28,556 nt of DNA from a virus. The stretch is from the IMG/VR virus record IMGVR_UViG_3300043331_000326, positions 1 to 28,556 of that record; one strand, written 5' to 3'. This document shows, piece by piece, positions 3,120 to 21,802 of this stretch. How positions within the stretch are numbered: the first letter of the stretch is position 1; the number at the start of each line of letters is the position of its first letter. The notes below the pieces were generated by a model. That model was not told the origin of the DNA and did not search any database. It saw only the letters and a list, made by a program, of their open reading frames with translations. A program made the translations under genes and the position numbers.

Positions 3120-3178
3120 GCAAACGGTCCGGCAGGGAGTAGGATCCCCGTATCAGCTAGTACGAGATAGGAGCGATC
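3117..3178 (+). promoter_or_regulatory. Duplicated -10 and leader with weak -35
   Basis: TAGGAT (3140-3145), TAGTAC (3158-3163) and TAGGAG (3168-3173) are copies of the elements before the gene at 2862. The base positions for a -35 at 17-base spacing read TAGGCA (3117-3122), which matches poorly, because the duplication does not reach that far upstream. This promoter should be weaker than its twin. Confidence 0.55.
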
Positions 3179-3181
3179 ATG
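3135..3181 (+). repeat. 47-base perfect direct repeat, copy 2
   Basis: Identical to 2818-2864. It carries the -10, the leader and the ATG of the gene at 3179, and begins 15 bases after the stop of the gene at 2862. Confidence 0.97.
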
Positions 3182-8817: not shown

Positions 8818-11584
8818 CCCGAGGGAACTCCTTCGCCCTTACGTTGCAGGAGCGCCGCGTGACGACGGCGAGCAGGACATGCACTGTCCTCTCCACCACG
8901 ACACCCGGCGCTCCGCGACCATCAACTTCGAACGAGGAGTCTGGTGGTGCGGCGCAGGCTGTGGGGGAGGAAAGATCCGTGACCTTGTCAAGCGCCAGGC
9001 TGAGTGGAATGATCCGCCCGGTGGCGCCAAGCCTGTGCAACGGAAGGGTGTCGAAGAGCTCCCTACCGAACGCCAGATCGCTAGGATGAATCGAATGCTC
9101 CTGAAGGACGAAACGCTCTACGGCATCCTCGTGGGGGAGCGGGGCATCACCCGCGACACCATGGCCCGGTTCGAGCTCGGGTGGGATGCCAGCCAGCGGG
9201 CGATCGTCATCCCGGTGAGGGACGCCGAGGGTGAGCTCGTCAACGTCCGCTTCTACGACCCGAACCCAGACCGGACGCGGCGGAAGATCTGGCAGGTGCG
9301 CGGCCGCACGGCCAAGCTTCTGTATCCGCTGACGACGATCGCCGAGGGACCCGAGTACATCATCATCTGCGAGGGTGAGTGGGACACGCTGCTGACGATC
9401 CAGCACGGGTTCCCCGCCATCACCCGGACCGGCAGCGCCGGTACCTGGCTGTCCTCGTGGAACCCTCTCTTCAAGGACCGGGTCGTGTACGTCGCGCACG
9501 ACGCCGATGCCGCCGGGCAGGCAGCCAACCAGAAGGTCGGGGCCGAGCTCGCGGGGTGGGCGTCAGAGGTCAGGGCAGTGACTCTTCCGTTCGCGATCAC
9601 CGACGACCACGGGAAGGACCTGAGTGACTTCTGGCTGGACGGTCACACCGCGGATGAGTTCCGTCGGTTGCTGATCGACGCACTGCCGTACGACAACGAG
9701 CGGCTGCGCCCGACTGAGCTCGACCCGTCAGACGCGAGCGTGCTTGACTCGTTCGACTCGCGGCGGCTCGGCGAGCCGCTACGGCTGAGCGTGACGGTGC
9801 AAGGCAAGCGTGACCCTGGGTACTCCATCCCGAAGGAGGTGGCCTACACCTGCACCCGCGACGCCGGGGAGAAGTGCAACCGGTGCCCGCTGTTCGGGGC
9901 TCAGGGCAACGACGTGCTCGACATCGAGCTCGGCGACCCCGACGTCCTCGAGATGATGAACGCAACCAAGCAGCAGCTGCACGAGCTCATGCGTCGGAAG
10001 TACGGCGCTCAGAAGTGTGACCGGTTGACCATCGAGGTGCCCGAGCACCAAGCCGTGGAGATCCTGTTCGCCCGGCCGAGCGTCGAGCACCTGAACGGTT
10101 ACACCCACCAAGGAGGCAACGCCCACAAGACCGTCAAGATCACCAGCGTCGGCAAGCACGACACCTCGGCCAACACCACGGTCCAGGTGACCGGCGCTCT
10201 CTACCCCGACCCGCGCTCGCAGCTGAACGAGTTCCTCGCCTGGAACGTCAACCCGATCGGGGCTCTGGCTGACAGGTTCGAGCTCAACGATGCAGCGGTC
10301 AGGTTGATGCGCCGGTTCCGGCCGCGTGCCACTCAGCGACCGCTGAAGAAGCTGGGCGAGATCGAGCGCGAGCTCGCGGCGCACGTCACGCACATCTACG
10401 AGCGGGTTGAGATGCACGCCATGATGGATCTGGTGTGGCACTCAGCCCTTCAGTTCGAGCTCGACGGGCAGCTGCTCACCCGCGGCTGGCTCGAGGCTCT
10501 CATCATCGGGGACACCCGGACCGGCAAGAGCGAAGTCGCCGCAGCGCTGACTCGCCACTACGGGCTCGGCGAGATCTACAACTGCGAGCGGGCGAGCATG
10601 GCGGGCATCCTCGGTGGGTTGCAGCAGTTCGGTTCGAGCTCACGTGAGTGGGCGATCACCTGGGGCGTGGTGCCGCTGAACGACGGGCGGCTCGTCGTCC
10701 TTGACGAAGCAGGAGGGATGACCCACGAGCAGATCTCTGAGATGAGTCAGCAGCGTGCGTCGGGCATGGCTGAGATCAACAAGATCCAGCAGGACCGGAC
10801 GCCCGCTCGTACCCGGGCCATCTGGCTGGCCAACCCTCGCAACAGCCGCATGAGGGACTACACCTACGGCGTGGCCGCGGTGCGTCCGCTCATCGGCAAC
10901 AACGAGGACATCGCCAGGTTCGACATGGCCATGACGGTTGCGGCCGGGGAGGTCGACCCGAAGGAGATCAACCGACCCCACCGTGCGGGTGAGCTCCGCT
11001 ACACCGCTGAGGCCTGCCGCACCCTGCTGTTGTGGGTGTGGTCGCGCACGCCGGATCAGGTCAAGTTCACGGCAGCCGCAACGAGGGAGGTGTACAAGCA
11101 GGCGCAGGCGATCGGCAGCAGGTACGTCGACGACCCACCTCTGATCCTGAGCGCCGACGTCCGGGTGAAGATCGCCCGCATCTCGGTGGCGCTGGCAGCC
11201 CGGCTGTTCTCGAGCTCAGCTGACTACGAGTCGATCGTGGTCAAGCCTGAGCACGTGGTCGCCGCGGTCGCCTTCATGGACCAGGTGTACTCGTTGAAGG
11301 GCTTCGGGTACAGGGAGCGGAGCGAGGAACTCCTCGCCGACGCAGCCACCGGTCTCGCCCACGCCGACAGCATCGAGCAGTACCTGGCACAGCACGAGGG
11401 GCTCGCGAAGTTCCTCCGGTCGAACAGCACCTTCCGTCGGCCGGACCTGGAGGAGATCCTGAACCTCCCCCGGGAGACAGCGAACGCCGTCATCAACACG
11501 CTGTGGCAGGCTCGTATGGTTAGGAAGGAGGGCGGCAACGTTCGGGTTGAGCCAGTCCTCCACGACATCCTGAGGAGAACCTAA
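8801..11584 (+). CDS. Primase fused to MCM-like AAA+ helicase
   Basis: The 927-residue product (start ATG 8801 or 8804; neither has a good ribosome site) joins three parts. A CHC2-type zinc finger uses C29, H32, C50 and C54 (CPLHH...WWCGAGC). A TOPRIM domain follows with IICEGEWD (Glu191) and HDADAAG (Asp234, Asp236). After a Cys-containing middle region (C351, C359, C362, C406, perhaps a second zinc site) comes an AAA+ core with Walker A GDTRTGKS (570-577), Walker B LVVLDEAGG (631-639), sensor-like ANPR (677-680) and IARFD (704-708). The ANP and ARFD elements are typical of MCM helicases rather than DnaB. It should prime and unwind at the phage fork with the DnaE-type polymerase. The last 100 residues resemble a winged helix. 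An open frame upstream to 8744 lies inside the previous gene. Confidence 0.9.
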   Translation: MMGRTDPRELLRPYVAGAPRDDGEQDMHCPLHHDTRRSATINFERGVWWCGAGCGGGKIRDLVKRQAEWNDPPGGAKPVQRKGVEELPTERQIARMNRMLLKDETLYGILVGERGITRDTMARFELGWDASQRAIVIPVRDAEGELVNVRFYDPNPDRTRRKIWQVRGRTAKLLYPLTTIAEGPEYIIICEGEWDTLLTIQHGFPAITRTGSAGTWLSSWNPLFKDRVVYVAHDADAAGQAANQKVGAELAGWASEVRAVTLPFAITDDHGKDLSDFWLDGHTADEFRRLLIDALPYDNERLRPTELDPSDASVLDSFDSRRLGEPLRLSVTVQGKRDPGYSIPKEVAYTCTRDAGEKCNRCPLFGAQGNDVLDIELGDPDVLEMMNATKQQLHELMRRKYGAQKCDRLTIEVPEHQAVEILFARPSVEHLNGYTHQGGNAHKTVKITSVGKHDTSANTTVQVTGALYPDPRSQLNEFLAWNVNPIGALADRFELNDAAVRLMRRFRPRATQRPLKKLGEIERELAAHVTHIYERVEMHAMMDLVWHSALQFELDGQLLTRGWLEALIIGDTRTGKSEVAAALTRHYGLGEIYNCERASMAGILGGLQQFGSSSREWAITWGVVPLNDGRLVVLDEAGGMTHEQISEMSQQRASGMAEINKIQQDRTPARTRAIWLANPRNSRMRDYTYGVAAVRPLIGNNEDIARFDMAMTVAAGEVDPKEINRPHRAGELRYTAEACRTLLLWVWSRTPDQVKFTAAATREVYKQAQAIGSRYVDDPPLILSADVRVKIARISVALAARLFSSSADYESIVVKPEHVVAAVAFMDQVYSLKGFGYRERSEELLADAATGLAHADSIEQYLAQHEGLAKFLRSNSTFRRPDLEEILNLPRETANAVINTLWQARMVRKEGGNVRVEPVLHDILRRT

Positions 11585-12064
11585 ATGGGACTGAAGGTCT
11601 ATCACGCGACCCCGCTCTTCTCTCCGGTCGGCCCGCGGGTCACCCAGATGCTCGAGCACTGGGGCCACCAGGTCTTCGACCCGCTCGCCGAGTCGAAGGA
11701 GATCTGGCAGGACAGGCCACCGGCCGACGCCGGGCCGGAGGCACGCCGTGCGGTGCTCGCGCAGAACATCCGCGGCATGAGGTGGGCCGACGTCGTCGTC
11801 GCCAACCTCAGGTCGACCGGCGGCAACTTCACCGACCAGGGCGTGGTGTGGGAGCTCGGCTTCTCCTACTCCCTGAGCAAGCCAACGATCGGGTTCCTTG
11901 CCGAAGGTGAGGAGGCCAACAACGTCAACCTGATGATCGCCGAGACGGTCGACGTGGTGGTGCCGGAGACGAGGCTGGTGATCGTCCTGGCTGACTACGG
12001 CGCTCAGGGCGTCTTCGGTCTGGTCCGCCACGGCAAGGCGCTGACCCACGAGGGTGCCTCGTGA
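11585..12064 (+). CDS. Nucleoside 2-deoxyribosyltransferase-like protein
   Basis: The 159-residue product begins KVYHATPLFSPVG, the nucleoside 2-deoxyribosyltransferase start with its conserved strand and Tyr/Phe. WADVVVANL (about 63-71) gives the Asp of the substrate pocket, and DQGVVWELGFSYSLSKPTIG (about 83-103) contains the catalytic Glu90 in a WELG context. Known enzymes move deoxyribose between bases or hydrolyse deoxynucleotides. In phages the family is linked to salvage or to making modified bases. The start follows the primase stop directly (TAAATGG). It is coupled to the HD phosphohydrolase by a GTGA overlap, and ThyX is in the same operon. Confidence 0.85.
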   Translation: MGLKVYHATPLFSPVGPRVTQMLEHWGHQVFDPLAESKEIWQDRPPADAGPEARRAVLAQNIRGMRWADVVVANLRSTGGNFTDQGVVWELGFSYSLSKPTIGFLAEGEEANNVNLMIAETVDVVVPETRLVIVLADYGAQGVFGLVRHGKALTHEGAS

Positions 12065-16453: not shown

Positions 16454-16659
16454 TGATCGACATCACGATGGTGAACGTGCAGGTGCAGACCATGGAGGCG
16501 CAGCAGCCCGACGGCACCGTCATGCGGGCGCTGAAGTTCACCGACCCCGAGTCCAAGATCTCGGTGACGGTGCCCATGGACCTGCTCACCGCTGACCGGA
16601 TGGGCCGGGCGCTCCAGGGTCTGGTCATCGCGGTCCCTGAGCCGCGGCTGCCGAGATGA
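16453..16659 (+). CDS. Hypothetical protein, 68 residues
   Basis: The start is GTG 16453, one base overlapping the polymerase stop TAG. The product is a small beta-rich protein (MVNVQVQTMEAQQPDG, ALKFTDPESKISVTVPM) followed by a helix (LLTADRMGRALQGLV). No family was recognised. It overlaps the ThyX start by 4 bases, so it belongs to the same operon. Confidence 0.7.
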   Translation: MIDITMVNVQVQTMEAQQPDGTVMRALKFTDPESKISVTVPMDLLTADRMGRALQGLVIAVPEPRLPR

Positions 16660-17486
16660 GCGGCGAGCTCACACGCTGGGGCGACAGCCAGCAGTACGAG
16701 GCAGCCCCGCTTCAGGGTCCGGGCATCACCGTCCGGGCGTTGCAGGTCCCGATCGATCCGCTGGGCGGGGTTGCGGCCATGCGTAGGATGTACGGCGGCA
16801 AGCCAACCTACTCCCTCAGAGAGATCAGCCACGTCGAGAGGATGGAGGCCTGGGAGGACATGATGAACGCCCACCTCCAGGCTCCGCTCGAAGCCATCCA
16901 GATGCACTTCTTCATCGAGGGAGTTGACCGTGCCTTCACCCACCAGCTGGTCCGTCAGCGCACCGCGACCTACGCTCAGGAGAGCATGCGCTTCGCGGTG
17001 GTGGGTGAGCTCGCCGACAAGGTGCAGCTTCCGGTCAGCATCCGGAGCGGATCGGCTGAGGCCGAGTCTTGGAACGCCGCGATCCTGGCGATCCAGCAGG
17101 CCTACGACTTCCTGGTGAACAATGGGGTGCCCGCCGAGGAGGCACGCGGGCTGCTGCCTCACGCCGTACCGACCAGGGTCCACTACGTGACCAACATGCG
17201 AGCTCTGCTCGAGCACGCGGGCAACCGGCTGTGCACTCAGGCGCAGTACGTGTGGCGGATCGTCTTCGCCATGATCGTCAACGAGCTCCGGGCACAGGAG
17301 CCGGAGTGGCAGTGGCGGGTCATCACCGAGCGTGCCTTCAAGCCGGTGTGCTATCGGCTGGGGCACTGTCCCTTCGAGGCAACCTTCGACCGGGACTGCA
17401 AGATCCGGCGTCGGGTGCGCGAGGGTCGGTGGGACGAGATCAACGACGCCGAGTGGGCACTCGACCCAGCGGCAGCGAGGAGGTAG
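16656..17486 (+). CDS. thyX: Flavin-dependent thymidylate synthase
   Basis: The 276-residue product has the ThyX signature RxRx7S, here RQRTATYAQESMRF with Arg100, Arg102 and Ser110; the usual central His of RHR is Gln101. Before it, HFFIEGVDRAFTHQLVR is the conserved approach with HQLVR, and the C-terminal domain keeps NRLCTQAQYVWR and a Cys-rich end. ThyX makes dTMP from dUMP with methylenetetrahydrofolate, FAD and NADPH. The enzyme is common in actinobacteria and their phages. It is the last gene of the replication and nucleotide block, 2 bases before the next start. Confidence 0.93.
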   Translation: MSGELTRWGDSQQYEAAPLQGPGITVRALQVPIDPLGGVAAMRRMYGGKPTYSLREISHVERMEAWEDMMNAHLQAPLEAIQMHFFIEGVDRAFTHQLVRQRTATYAQESMRFAVVGELADKVQLPVSIRSGSAEAESWNAAILAIQQAYDFLVNNGVPAEEARGLLPHAVPTRVHYVTNMRALLEHAGNRLCTQAQYVWRIVFAMIVNELRAQEPEWQWRVITERAFKPVCYRLGHCPFEATFDRDCKIRRRVREGRWDEINDAEWALDPAAARR

Positions 17487-17488
17487 GA

Positions 17489-17935
17489 ATGAGGAAGTTC
17501 GTCGCCATCGTTGCGTCGCTCGCGATCGTGGGCGGCGTGGCGACTGGCATCGAGAAGGCTGACGGGGCTGTTCGTCGCTCGTTCGCTGAGCCAGTTCAGC
17601 ATGGCGTCACCCGGGTCGGTGACGGCATCCTCGGATCAGTCTCCTGGAAGGTCTGGGGCAACGCACGTGGCCTGAAGCTTTCGATGACCCTGCGCTTCGA
17701 GTACCAGCTGCCCAGCGGCGTGGTTGGCGCTCTGCCTGACAGGTACTTCGAGCCCTTCCCGGTGAAGAACGGGTTCACCTACACCAGGGGGATCTTGCGG
17801 CCGTGCAAGATTGCGGGCATCCCTCGCAGGCGCAAGGTGCTGTGGCGGCTGGCATACGCTGGCACTCTCACAGCGATGAACGGTTGGGGGAACGCCGAAG
17901 CTGACCGCACTCCGTGGTCGGCTGTGTGCAGCTAG
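17489..17935 (+). CDS. Exported hypothetical protein
   Basis: The 148-residue product starts with a basic N-terminus and hydrophobic core (MRKFVAIVASLAIVGGVATG) followed by small residues around ADGA at about 24-28, which reads as a signal peptide or a membrane anchor. The mature part is basic and beta-rich, with SWKVWGNARGLKLSMTLRFEYQLPSG and two Cys (about 107 and 147) that could form a disulfide. No family was recognised. GAGGAGGTAGGA precedes the ATG. It opens the set of exported proteins that follows the nucleotide operon. Confidence 0.7.
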   Translation: MRKFVAIVASLAIVGGVATGIEKADGAVRRSFAEPVQHGVTRVGDGILGSVSWKVWGNARGLKLSMTLRFEYQLPSGVVGALPDRYFEPFPVKNGFTYTRGILRPCKIAGIPRRRKVLWRLAYAGTLTAMNGWGNAEADRTPWSAVCS

Positions 17936-17944
17936 GAGGTAGGG

Positions 17945-18181
17945 ATGACGATCGTGTGGACCAACGGCGAGATCAGATCGGTGCACGGAGCAGCCAACAC
18001 CCGGCTGTTCTACGTGGTGCTCGAGGACGGGACTAGAGGGTACGTCCGCGACACCGCGGTCAAGCACCACAAGGACAACGACGCCCGGATGCGAGCGCCA
18101 TGGTACATGGCACCCGGGGCTCACGTCGAGGTCAGGAGCGACCGAGTCAAGGACACCCGCGACGCGGCGCTGGCGGCGTAA
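17945..18181 (+). CDS. Hypothetical protein, 78 residues
   Basis: The ATG at 17945 follows AGGAGGTAGGG. The product is a small beta protein, with RSVHGAANTRLFYVVLEDGTRGYVRD and GAHVEVRSDRVKD, similar in texture to SH3-like folds. No signal peptide and no recognised family. The promoter for the next unit begins at its stop codon: the stop ends at 18181 and the -35 starts at 18183. Confidence 0.65.
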   Translation: MTIVWTNGEIRSVHGAANTRLFYVVLEDGTRGYVRDTAVKHHKDNDARMRAPWYMAPGAHVEVRSDRVKDTRDAALAA

Positions 18182-18182
18182 G

Positions 18183-18241
18183 TTGCGCGTAAGCGCACGT
18201 GCGCTATAGTGCGCCCGCACGCTAGTCAACGCTAGGAGAAC
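18183..18241 (+). promoter_or_regulatory. Promoter with core palindrome and two-part leader
   Basis: TTGCGC (18183-18188), 16 bases and TATAGT (18205-18210) form the promoter. Between them AGCGCACGTGCGCT (18192-18205) is a perfect 14-base palindrome that occupies most of the spacer, a typical operator position. The leader TAGTCA (18223-18228) and TAGGAG (18233-18238) keeps the 10-base offset. ATG 18242 is three bases and ATG 18245 six bases after TAGGAG, so the second ATG matches the usual spacing better. Confidence 0.75.
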
Positions 18242-18901
18242 ATGATGGGACGCGGCGCCAGATGGATCATCGTTGGAGGTCTGTGTCTCCTGCTCGCATT
18301 CGCGGGTAAGGGCCAGGCTGCCACCATGTCGGATGGCCCGACGTTCCTCGCCCGGTACGGGGTCGACGCATCGTTGGCCAAGCCGATCAAGTTCGTCGAC
18401 CACATCCCGAACCGTTACGACCCCGCCCTGGAGGCGAGAGCCGCAGCCGGGTCAGAGAACATCCTGGTTGTCCGCCAGGCTGATCCGCGCGACCAGGCAC
18501 GAGACATCCTGCACGAGGACCTGCACTACGCAAGCTTCTGGCGTTGGCATGGCGTCGACGGACAGTTCGTGCAGGACGAGCAGTACAACTGGCGCATCGT
18601 CTACAAGTACGACGCTCAGCTGACCAACGAGGCTTGGCTCCTCAAGTACGAGGAGGCTCTGGTACAGGCCATCGCTCGGGCGATGATGCCCCGGTGGTGG
18701 AAGTACCTCACTGGTCGCAGGATCGACCCTGAGTGGGAAGGTCTCAGCACGGCGTACGACGCCGGTGTGATCCAGTGGAACGCACGTGCCAAGAAGGCAA
18801 CCGGAGAGTCCTGGCGCACACGCGCTGGGCGAGAGTGGCTGGTGGCTGCGCTGACCTTGCCGCCGCCAGAGCGTCAGGCGCTCTACGACAGCCTGACCTA
18901 A
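18242..18901 (+). CDS. Exported protein with HExxH metalloprotease motif
   Basis: The 219-residue product starts at ATG 18242 (or 18245) with a signal peptide: RGAR, then WIIVGGLCLLLAFAGKGQAA, with a likely cut after AQAA-type residues near 27. His91-Glu92-Asp-Leu-His95 (LHEDLHYAS) is a HExxH zinc motif, and Glu137/Glu138 in KYEEALVQAIAR, about 42 residues later, could be the third ligand, as in gluzincin-type proteases. There is no transmembrane segment after the signal. An exported or envelope-acting zinc metalloprotease or peptidase is plausible; the substrate is unknown. It heads its own promoter unit between the replication and packaging modules. Confidence 0.75.
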   Translation: MMGRGARWIIVGGLCLLLAFAGKGQAATMSDGPTFLARYGVDASLAKPIKFVDHIPNRYDPALEARAAAGSENILVVRQADPRDQARDILHEDLHYASFWRWHGVDGQFVQDEQYNWRIVYKYDAQLTNEAWLLKYEEALVQAIARAMMPRWWKYLTGRRIDPEWEGLSTAYDAGVIQWNARAKKATGESWRTRAGREWLVAALTLPPPERQALYDSLT

Positions 18902-18920
18902 TCCCCTGTTAGGAGGACCG

Positions 18921-19736
18921 ATGAAGAAGAGGACCTTCGCGGCTGCACTGGGTGTCGCCGCGCTCACCACCGCCGGGCTCGCGAGCCAGGCATCGGCCAA
19001 CGACTCGGCGATCGCCTGCTACGTGCAGGACCCGTCGAAGATCGAGCTCACCCTGACCCACTGGCAGGGCGGGGCAACGGCCACGCTCTACTCCAACAAC
19101 CAGCAGGTGTCCGTCAACCAGTACCCGGGCAACGGCGTCTACCAGATCGCCGCCCCGGACGACACGAACATCCGCGTCGTGGTGACCGGCTCGGGAGGCC
19201 AGCGTTCGGAGTCCTCGATGTACAAGGACTGCCAGCCGCCGGTCGTGCTTCCGCCGCCACCGCCGCCGCCCGGGCCGGAGCCTCAGCCTCAGCCGACGCC
19301 GCGCACCGTCGTGGTGCCGCCGCCGCCGAAGCCGAAGCTTCCGCCGCCGGACCTTCCCCCGCGGCAGCCCTGCAAGATGGTTGGGCAGCTGAAGCTGTTT
19401 GTCCCTAACCACACGCTCGCGGTGTCGCTGGGCGGTCCGGAGTTCTACACCGGCCGCGTGGTGTTCAAGAACACCGGGGCGACCATCCACCGAGCGGTGC
19501 TCTCGCTCCGCTTCACCAACCGTCCGTCGCTGGCGTACTTCATCCGCAACGGCGAGCGTGCCGGGCAGGCCATCGGCTTCCAGATCCGCGAGCTCAAGCC
19601 GCAGAAGACGTACACTAAGACGTTCCGGTTCCAGCACCCGGCGCGAGCCTTCAAGCGGTTCTTCCGCACCGAGGCCGTCGTGGTGAACTCGTGTGGCCAC
19701 ATCGACCGCGTGGCCGTCACCCGACTGGAGGACTGA
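18921..19736 (+). CDS. Exported two-domain protein with proline-rich linker
   Basis: The 271-residue product has a clear signal peptide (MKKRTFAAALGVAALTTAGL, cleavage near ASQASA-ND). Residues about 28-108 form a beta-sandwich-like domain with two Cys (about 33 and 109). A stretch of about 45 residues is almost only Pro with Val, Lys and Gln (residues about 110-153). The second beta domain follows, about 155-265, with RVVFKNTGATIHRAVLSLRF like an Ig/fibronectin-type fold. No family was recognised. The design fits a cell-wall-spanning or surface-attached protein. AGGAGG lies just before the ATG. The stop is followed in the same frame by the next open frame. Confidence 0.75.
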   Translation: MKKRTFAAALGVAALTTAGLASQASANDSAIACYVQDPSKIELTLTHWQGGATATLYSNNQQVSVNQYPGNGVYQIAAPDDTNIRVVVTGSGGQRSESSMYKDCQPPVVLPPPPPPPGPEPQPQPTPRTVVVPPPPKPKLPPPDLPPRQPCKMVGQLKLFVPNHTLAVSLGGPEFYTGRVVFKNTGATIHRAVLSLRFTNRPSLAYFIRNGERAGQAIGFQIRELKPQKTYTKTFRFQHPARAFKRFFRTEAVVVNSCGHIDRVAVTRLED

Positions 19737-19778
19737 GCCATCGCGCTCGTCGTTCACGCCGAGCTCCCGCCCGCCCTT

Positions 19779-20318
19779 GTGCGGGTGGGGGCCATCCGGC
19801 GCATCTACCCTGACCTGTTCCGGCTGTCGCATCCGCTGGCTGCCAGAGACCTTCGCCCCATGCCCACCAGCGTGGGGCCGAAGCTGGGTCGGAGAGTCTC
19901 GTCTCGCTACGCCAACACGCACAAGTGCTCGCAGTTCGCGATCGAGCACCGTGCGGCGTCGCGGGGAGTGCTGGGTACGTCTCGCGTGGTGTGGGGTTGC
20001 GCCGACGTGCCTCAGCCGGTTCAGCAGTTCCTCTCGTGCGTGATGCCCAAGGAGGGTGGCACCACGCACTGGGATGTGATGTTCGGCGGAGCCAGGTACT
20101 CGCAGGTGGGGCTCCCGCCGGGTAACGCCGTGCTCGGGCCGGTGCAAGGACGCCCGGCCTGGGTTGTGGTCTACGAGTTCGGCGGGACGTACCGTGAGGA
20201 CTTTTGGACGGTGCGTAAGGCCGAGATCATGACCGGTCCCTACCATCACCCCCGGATCGCCTGGATGATCTACCGGCTGCAAGGTCGGGCTGCCTGGGCG
20301 ACCGAGGGCTTCTGCTAG
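19779..20318 (+). CDS. Hypothetical protein with uncertain start
   Basis: The first conventional start is GTG 19779 (179 residues; GTG 19785 is next), but neither has a ribosome site. The frame is open back to the TGA (19734-19736) that ends the previous gene in the same frame. GGAGGACTGAGCC then leads to ATC at 19740, which has the right spacing for a start and would add 13 residues. The product has several Cys and reads as beta-rich (RPAWVVVYEFGGTYREDFW). There is no signal peptide from GTG; from 19740 the first residues are hydrophobic but short. No family was recognised. Confidence 0.6.
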   Translation: MRVGAIRRIYPDLFRLSHPLAARDLRPMPTSVGPKLGRRVSSRYANTHKCSQFAIEHRAASRGVLGTSRVVWGCADVPQPVQQFLSCVMPKEGGTTHWDVMFGGARYSQVGLPPGNAVLGPVQGRPAWVVVYEFGGTYREDFWTVRKAEIMTGPYHHPRIAWMIYRLQGRAAWATEGFC

Positions 20319-21585: not shown

Positions 21586-21759
21586 ATGGATGTCATTCGG
21601 ATTGCTTATTCGAAGGCGTCTTCAATCGCCGATCGTGCTCAGATCGCCATTTCGTCGATAAGCGGGGTGGGAGGGCTTCTGGGGCGATTTGATGTTCGGA
21701 GGTGTAACTACCCTCAGACGCCATCAAATCGCTTTCGCCTGCTAATGGAGGGATTCTGA
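21586..21759 (+). CDS. Possible 57-residue protein in an AT-richer island
   Basis: ATG 21586 follows GGGAGGTGG at about the right distance and opens 57 codons to TGA 21757-21759. The product (MDVIRIAYSKASSIADRAQI and onward) is mostly helical with a Gly-rich turn (SGVGGLLGRF) and one Cys. Many codons end in T or A, unlike the rest of the window, so the frame may be young, foreign or non-coding. A 10-codon frame overlaps its stop (ATG 21759 to TAA 21791) and leads to the ribosome site of the next gene. An 11-base inverted repeat lies inside it. Confidence 0.4.
   Translation: MDVIRIAYSKASSIADRAQIAISSISGVGGLLGRFDVRRCNYPQTPSNRFRLLMEGF
21684..21732 (+). repeat. 11-base perfect inverted repeat
   Basis: GCGATTTGATG (21684-21694) and CATCAAATCGC (21722-21732) are exact complements separated by 27 bases, with G-T pairs possible beyond the outer ends. 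The loop holds GAGG and CCTC that can also pair. It is the most AT-rich structure in the window and could be a protein-binding site or an RNA fold before the RuvC-like gene. Confidence 0.7.
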
Positions 21760-21802
21760 TGGATGGCCTGAACATAAAGATTAGCCGGTAAAGGAGGTGG
21801 GT

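Follow-up and report, generated by a model that had tools for sequence, protein, structure and literature searches.

Genes between thyX and the terminase gene

Do the exported proteins encoded between thyX and the packaging genes of a phage constitute a system of their own, and what does the HExxH protein in their midst do? The question is raised by the window, i.e., the whole stretch of DNA analyzed here, a 28,556-base virus record. It is a phage fragment in which replication genes are followed by thyX, a stretch of five genes (A–E), the gene for the terminase large subunit (recognized by its match to PHROG phrog_2) and, downstream, head proteins, the last being called from position and reading only. 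The anchor upstream of the exported genes is thyX, which codes for a flavin-dependent thymidylate synthase (16656–17486, + strand; Pfam Thy1 E=2e-29). It is succeeded on the same strand by A (17489–17935), coding for a basic, exported protein of 148 aa that has two cysteines; B (17945–18181), a 78-aa protein without a signal peptide; C (18242–18901), a 219-aa exported HExxH protein predicted from its family to be a gluzincin-like zinc peptidase; D (18921–19736), a 271-aa exported protein; and E (19740–20318, or from 19779), a 179–192-aa protein. The codon-position signal of the phage is strongest in the gene's own frame for each of A–E, with the other frames being lower, and in A–D the ATG start is preceded by a Shine-Dalgarno sequence, E being the exception. 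A crude Sec rule predicts Sec-type signal peptides in A, C and D and none in E. The original prediction of real, exported ORFs at 17489, 18242 and 18921 is thus borne out, and its gene list is right for A, C, D and E, while it overlooked B between A and C. Searches of Pfam, PHROGs, NCBIfam and PADLOC gave no acceptable match for any of A–E, and no recognized lysis gene is seen adjoining C in the window.

The start of E is less clear-cut than the proposed 19779. E continues the frame of D past the TGA of the latter (19734–19779), and no good ATG or GTG start is present. The candidate start is an ATC at 19740, lying 8 nt after GGAGG (19727–19731), with the GTG at 19779 as the alternative; a rare ATC start, read-through and a sequencing error are all possible.

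The exported genes had also been proposed to share a strong regulated promoter. The sole candidate is a promoter-like site, TTGCGC-16 nt-TATAGT (18183–18210, + strand), which is unique in the window and matches the sigma-70 hexamers at 3/6 positions in the −35 element and at 5/6 in the other; a sigma-70 promoter scan made no call there. Its spacer harbors the palindrome GCGCACGTGCGC (18193–18204), which counts for little on its own since the window has 14 perfect 12-bp palindromes. As the site lies between B and C, downstream of both 17489 and 17945, it is no driver of A and, judging from this arrangement, can serve only C and the genes downstream (C and D), not A or B. Hence, the notion of a shared promoter falls away. 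A, which has its own Shine-Dalgarno sequence (AGGAGG) and is separated from the stop codon of thyX by 2 nt, is probably read together with thyX. D starts 20 nt past C, and the two are probably on one transcript.

A family of HExxH proteins new to the libraries searched

The translation of C reads as had been claimed, with HEDLH at residues 91–95 and Glu137/138 downstream. Shuffling C yields HExxH in about 0.3% of cases, and the figure across C-family proteins is 0.3–0.5%; this rarity, together with its conservation in homologs, indicates that the motif is not a chance occurrence. In the closest relatives of the phage (G001 and G002), a homolog, P0006, is detected via C residues 130–214, i.e., downstream of the motif, and nevertheless possesses a signal peptide, HEVLH and WLEEGL (pairwise E=1e-4; local alignment shuffle P=0.0005 over 2000 shuffles). 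A two-member profile of C and P0006, run against 297 genomes of one phylum centered on a Mycobacterium, recovered P0008 (locus L201, E=2e-9), again via the downstream part; this is an exported ORF with HETLH and EEW. The resulting three-member profile found matches at 13 places in 12 of 399 genomes of one class, with the best match, P0008 itself aside, at E=3.6e-25. One weak place, L218, was left out, and it was dropped from the family along with L202–L204, as these are without the motif or a clean frame.

HExxH is present in all full-length family matches inspected. The iterated profile searches thus uncovered homologs in a dozen actinobacterial genomes, and the family with HExxH has 14 members. 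In an 11-member alignment, H91, E92, H95, E138, Y172, W199 and R211 (C numbering) are invariant. The downstream glutamate lies in an EE(G/A)xx motif at a widely varying distance of about 13–43 aa from HExxH. The family-wide invariance and the rarity in shuffles indicate that HExxH and this glutamate are under constraint. Judged by its motifs, the family fits a previously uncatalogued group of gluzincin-type zinc metallopeptidases with HExxH followed by Glu about 13–43 residues on.

No library searched contains the family: Pfam, PHROGs, NCBIfam, PADLOC, the PDB sequences and a set of 50,697 phage records all lack it, so that pipelines built on these libraries would miss it. A plasmid search with C gave no match, scans of viral collections with C, D, P0006, TerL and the alignment A4 gave no new match, and fifty further ThyX-bearing phage records, searched whole, hold no C homolog. 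The C profile also matched haemagglutinin-esterase and IgG Fc in the PDB, by chance. Models predicted for C and P0006 are of too low confidence to be informative (pLDDT 42 and 62) and have no Foldseek match at E≤0.001. As no Pfam, NCBIfam or PDB peptidase family is matched, we term C only gluzincin-like: the proposal that it is a metalloprotease is credible in light of the family-wide HExxH and downstream Glu, although no named peptidase family supports it.

A second subgroup (L209–L215) is without a signal peptide and occurs on cellular contigs without clear phage neighbors, which implies that only some members of the family are exported. In these loci, TAC(C/G/T)TTCGG ends a few bases before the ATG of the C-family gene with no Shine-Dalgarno sequence, as if leaderless, and the N-terminus of the protein reads CTPPPPP or CTPAPPP. 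One genome carries a diverged pair of C-family genes: L222:9576-10184 lies in a prophage, and L223:9467-10144 is without clear phage neighbors.

Genomic contexts of C and its neighbors

ThyX scans furnished 24, and later 80, related viral loci. Three among the 24 are near relatives, sharing with the window DnaE (68%), a primase-helicase-like protein (63%) and ThyX (68%); the RuvC-like gene and TerL also match. Neither these near relatives nor the further viral loci contain a detectable homolog of A, D or E. C alone has one, P0006, which in G001 and G002 is encoded between genes for a SNF2-like helicase and a Cas4-like nuclease (labels given by reading of the sequence, without a family search), near neither ThyX nor the terminase. 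Elsewhere, in the apparent prophage L222, C is preceded by a RusA-like and then a replication-initiation gene and is followed by TerL and portal; the apparent prophage L220/L221 reads replication initiation, C, HNH, TerL, portal and tape measure, and the phage contig L231 reads C, HNH and TerL. Counting the window, four genomes thus have an exported C that either separates the replication from the packaging genes or lies shortly before the latter, with G001/G002 being the exception. On this reading, it is phages and prophages of Actinomycetota that carry the exported form.

In total, C is found without A, D and E in five genomes or records. The genes had been expected to travel together in relatives; with C having its homologs at other places without the rest, and A, D and E having none, the island is not a unit. 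Direct searches of the 50,697 phage records with A, C, D and E returned no match. Matches of A and D to genomes (L205, L206, L233–L235) were discarded as low-complexity, frame-shadow or stop-containing. Position made it tempting to relate A to P0007, an exported 123-aa protein that also follows ThyX in the closest relatives, but shuffle tests do not uphold this (P=0.14–0.39). Similarly, D has a Cys-bracketed N-terminal domain, a long Pro linker and a C-terminal domain, an architecture resembling that of P0009 from a relative; the similarity is not significant and the shuffle tests again fail (P=0.06–0.92). A and D look like lineage-specific genes gathered beside thyX rather than fixed parts of a system.

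Exported proteins around ThyX in related phages

Structural or lysis genes had been thought out of place in this part of the genome. This does not hold in the relatives, where transglycosylase-like ORFs occur by ThyX or the terminase genes. G002 codes for the exported P0009 before and the exported P0007 after ThyX, and for an exported SLT protein whose gene lies between those of the terminase (Pfam SLT, 22.8 bits against a cut-off of 21.3). In L150, an ORF next to ThyX codes for an exported transglycosylase-like protein whose E of 7e-4 does not reach the Pfam cut-off; L162 and L148 have weaker cases near ThyX, and L149 has one by reading alone. In L170, a distant phage relative, ThyX is directly followed by an exported matrixin with HETGHILGLGH (11094–11729; Pfam M10 6e-9, 36.4 bits, cut-off 24).

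Exported transglycosylase-like ORFs near ThyX or between terminase genes, some called by reading only, are L048:4361-5011 (− strand), L150:9195-9560, L149:8975-9484, L162:9240-9581, L179:9081-9590 and L152:9433-9798; it is possible that they are Sec-exported endolysins of this phage group. At L169:3155-4289, in another phage, three successive exported ORFs directly follow ThyX, constituting a second exported cluster at such a place. With the unedited caller, exported ORFs are not significantly more frequent within 2.5 kb of ThyX than farther away (16/379 vs. 19/610, P=0.23); with Rossmann-fold and multi-span false positives removed by eye, a post hoc step, the same count gives 12/379 vs. 5/610 (P=0.007).

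Comparison with known systems

As a kind, the phage-associated exported zinc protease already has a precedent. The closest tested one is the Listeria Mtz, a secreted metzincin of phage origin encoded adjacent to Tim; Mtz cleaves its neighbor lipoprotein, alters the wall and raises sensitivity to lysis and the release of virions, and relatives display a plain Sec signal (PMC8235301). As in that pair, C is an exported HExxH protein associated with phage elements and has an exported neighbor, D, encoded directly downstream. However, in place of the HExxHxxGxxH/D motif and Met-turn of Mtz, C reads HEDLHYASFWR plus a downstream Glu, and the metzincin motif is also absent from P0006 (HEVLHRHVPYN) and P0008 (HETLHRTDCHR). 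Moreover, D shows no relation to the TIMP-like Tim and is not conserved with C. With the gluzincins (clan MA(E): HExxH plus a distal Glu), the C family shares HExxH and the invariant Glu in EE(G/A)xx, but C has no detectable sequence relation to them in Pfam, NCBIfam or PDB, and the low-pLDDT models of C and P0006 went unmatched in Foldseek.

The L170 matrixin resembles C in being exported, having HExxH and lying near ThyX, there directly after it, but its motif is that of a metzincin and it belongs to a different protein family. The murein hydrolases of phages (SLT, transglycosylase-like) are likewise exported and located beside ThyX or between terminase genes in relatives, but these are not proteases and have no sequence relation to C. 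Thus, as originally stated, no named system matches this set of genes, and PADLOC has no match to it.

A potential role for C in lysis and its alternatives

The best overall explanation, to which we give a probability of roughly one half, is that C is an exported gluzincin-like protease that cuts host envelope or secreted proteins, thereby easing lysis and virion release. Its parts differ in strength: C is likely to be an active zinc peptidase in view of its conserved residues, whereas easing of lysis or release as its role is put forward tentatively, by analogy. Starting from the observed family, its invariant residues, the rule-based signal peptide and the phage position, we infer the zinc, the proteolysis, the target, the timing and the benefit as follows. 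C would be made together with D from their own promoter and cross the membrane via Sec, its signal peptide placing it outside, where it would fold. Zinc would be held by His91, His95 and Glu138, with Glu92 as the base; C would then cut at least one envelope or secreted protein of the host, making the wall give way more readily at lysis and setting virions free. A and D may have accumulated beside thyX, a site at which related phages harbor other exported genes acting on the envelope. Among the three roles originally proposed, cell-wall work before lysis comes out best, albeit by inference.

In a rival reading, which we consider unlikely, C is an exported zinc peptidase for superinfection exclusion or receptor shaving, trimming during infection or lysogeny a surface protein that serves related phages as their receptor. 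Its occurrence in two apparent prophages would suit such a role, since exclusion or lysogenic conversion is of benefit there, as would its distance from any lysis cassette; yet there is no PADLOC match or visible tie to immunity genes, and lysogenic-conversion genes at the ends of prophages are not typically found beside replication genes. We regard it as quite unlikely that C and D form a protease-partner pair with D as an exported substrate, inhibitor or anchor, in the manner of Mtz-Tim. The 20-nt gap with no promoter between the genes, the signal peptides on both products and the protease-accessible long Pro linker of D would suit such a pair, as would the Listeria precedent, where tim directly follows mtz with no apparent promoter (PMC8235301). 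Nevertheless, no D homolog lies beside C in the relatives or the three prophage/phage loci, and in G002 the protein with D-like architecture is encoded far from the C homolog and is not significantly similar.

HExxH with a Glu is also seen in inactive or non-protease zincin-like proteins. C could accordingly have kept a zincin scaffold for metal or partner binding in the envelope, or for a structural or regulatory zincin-like function; no fold or family match backs peptidase activity, and the HExxH-to-Glu spacing is widely variable. Weighing against this, and making it very unlikely, is Glu92, which is needed for catalysis rather than zinc binding and is invariant in 11/11 aligned sequences, thus arguing for an active peptidase. 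Finally, that A, C, D and E are jointly a new envelope-modifying or exclusion system appears exceedingly improbable: the genes are adjacent and co-oriented and three of their products are exported, but the promoter-like site comes after A, convincing homologs are lacking for A, D and E, and C stands without them in every other genome found.

Returning to C as an exported protease that eases lysis, a broader formulation would be that it founds a new family of phage-encoded, Sec-exported gluzincin-like proteases with which actinophages reshape the host envelope from outside, either ahead of lysis or in its course, the slot by thyX serving as an envelope-attack module that unrelated phages fill with the matrixin or the transglycosylase-like proteins; this generalization is doubtful at present. 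Phage release is usually described in terms of a holin and a murein hydrolase. If the proposal is true, some phages would attack host envelope proteins too, by means of a recurrent exported protease gene located between those for replication and packaging.

Other features of the window

The window begins inside a gene, which is followed by one for a small holin-like membrane protein (176–511); the endolysin might be encoded by the missing upstream gene. The holin-like protein is common to the window and G002, where it comes after TerL. An inverted repeat, GCGATTTGATG...CATCAAATCGC, occupies apparently noncoding DNA before the RuvC-like gene (21687–21735); the noncoding region near 21600–21800 folds no better than its shuffles and has no Rfam match. 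A 47-bp block occurs in two identical copies (2818–2864 and 3135–3181) and one degenerate copy (580–626). It comprises the leader, Shine-Dalgarno sequence and start of two successive small genes, and is thus a duplicated promoter or leader.
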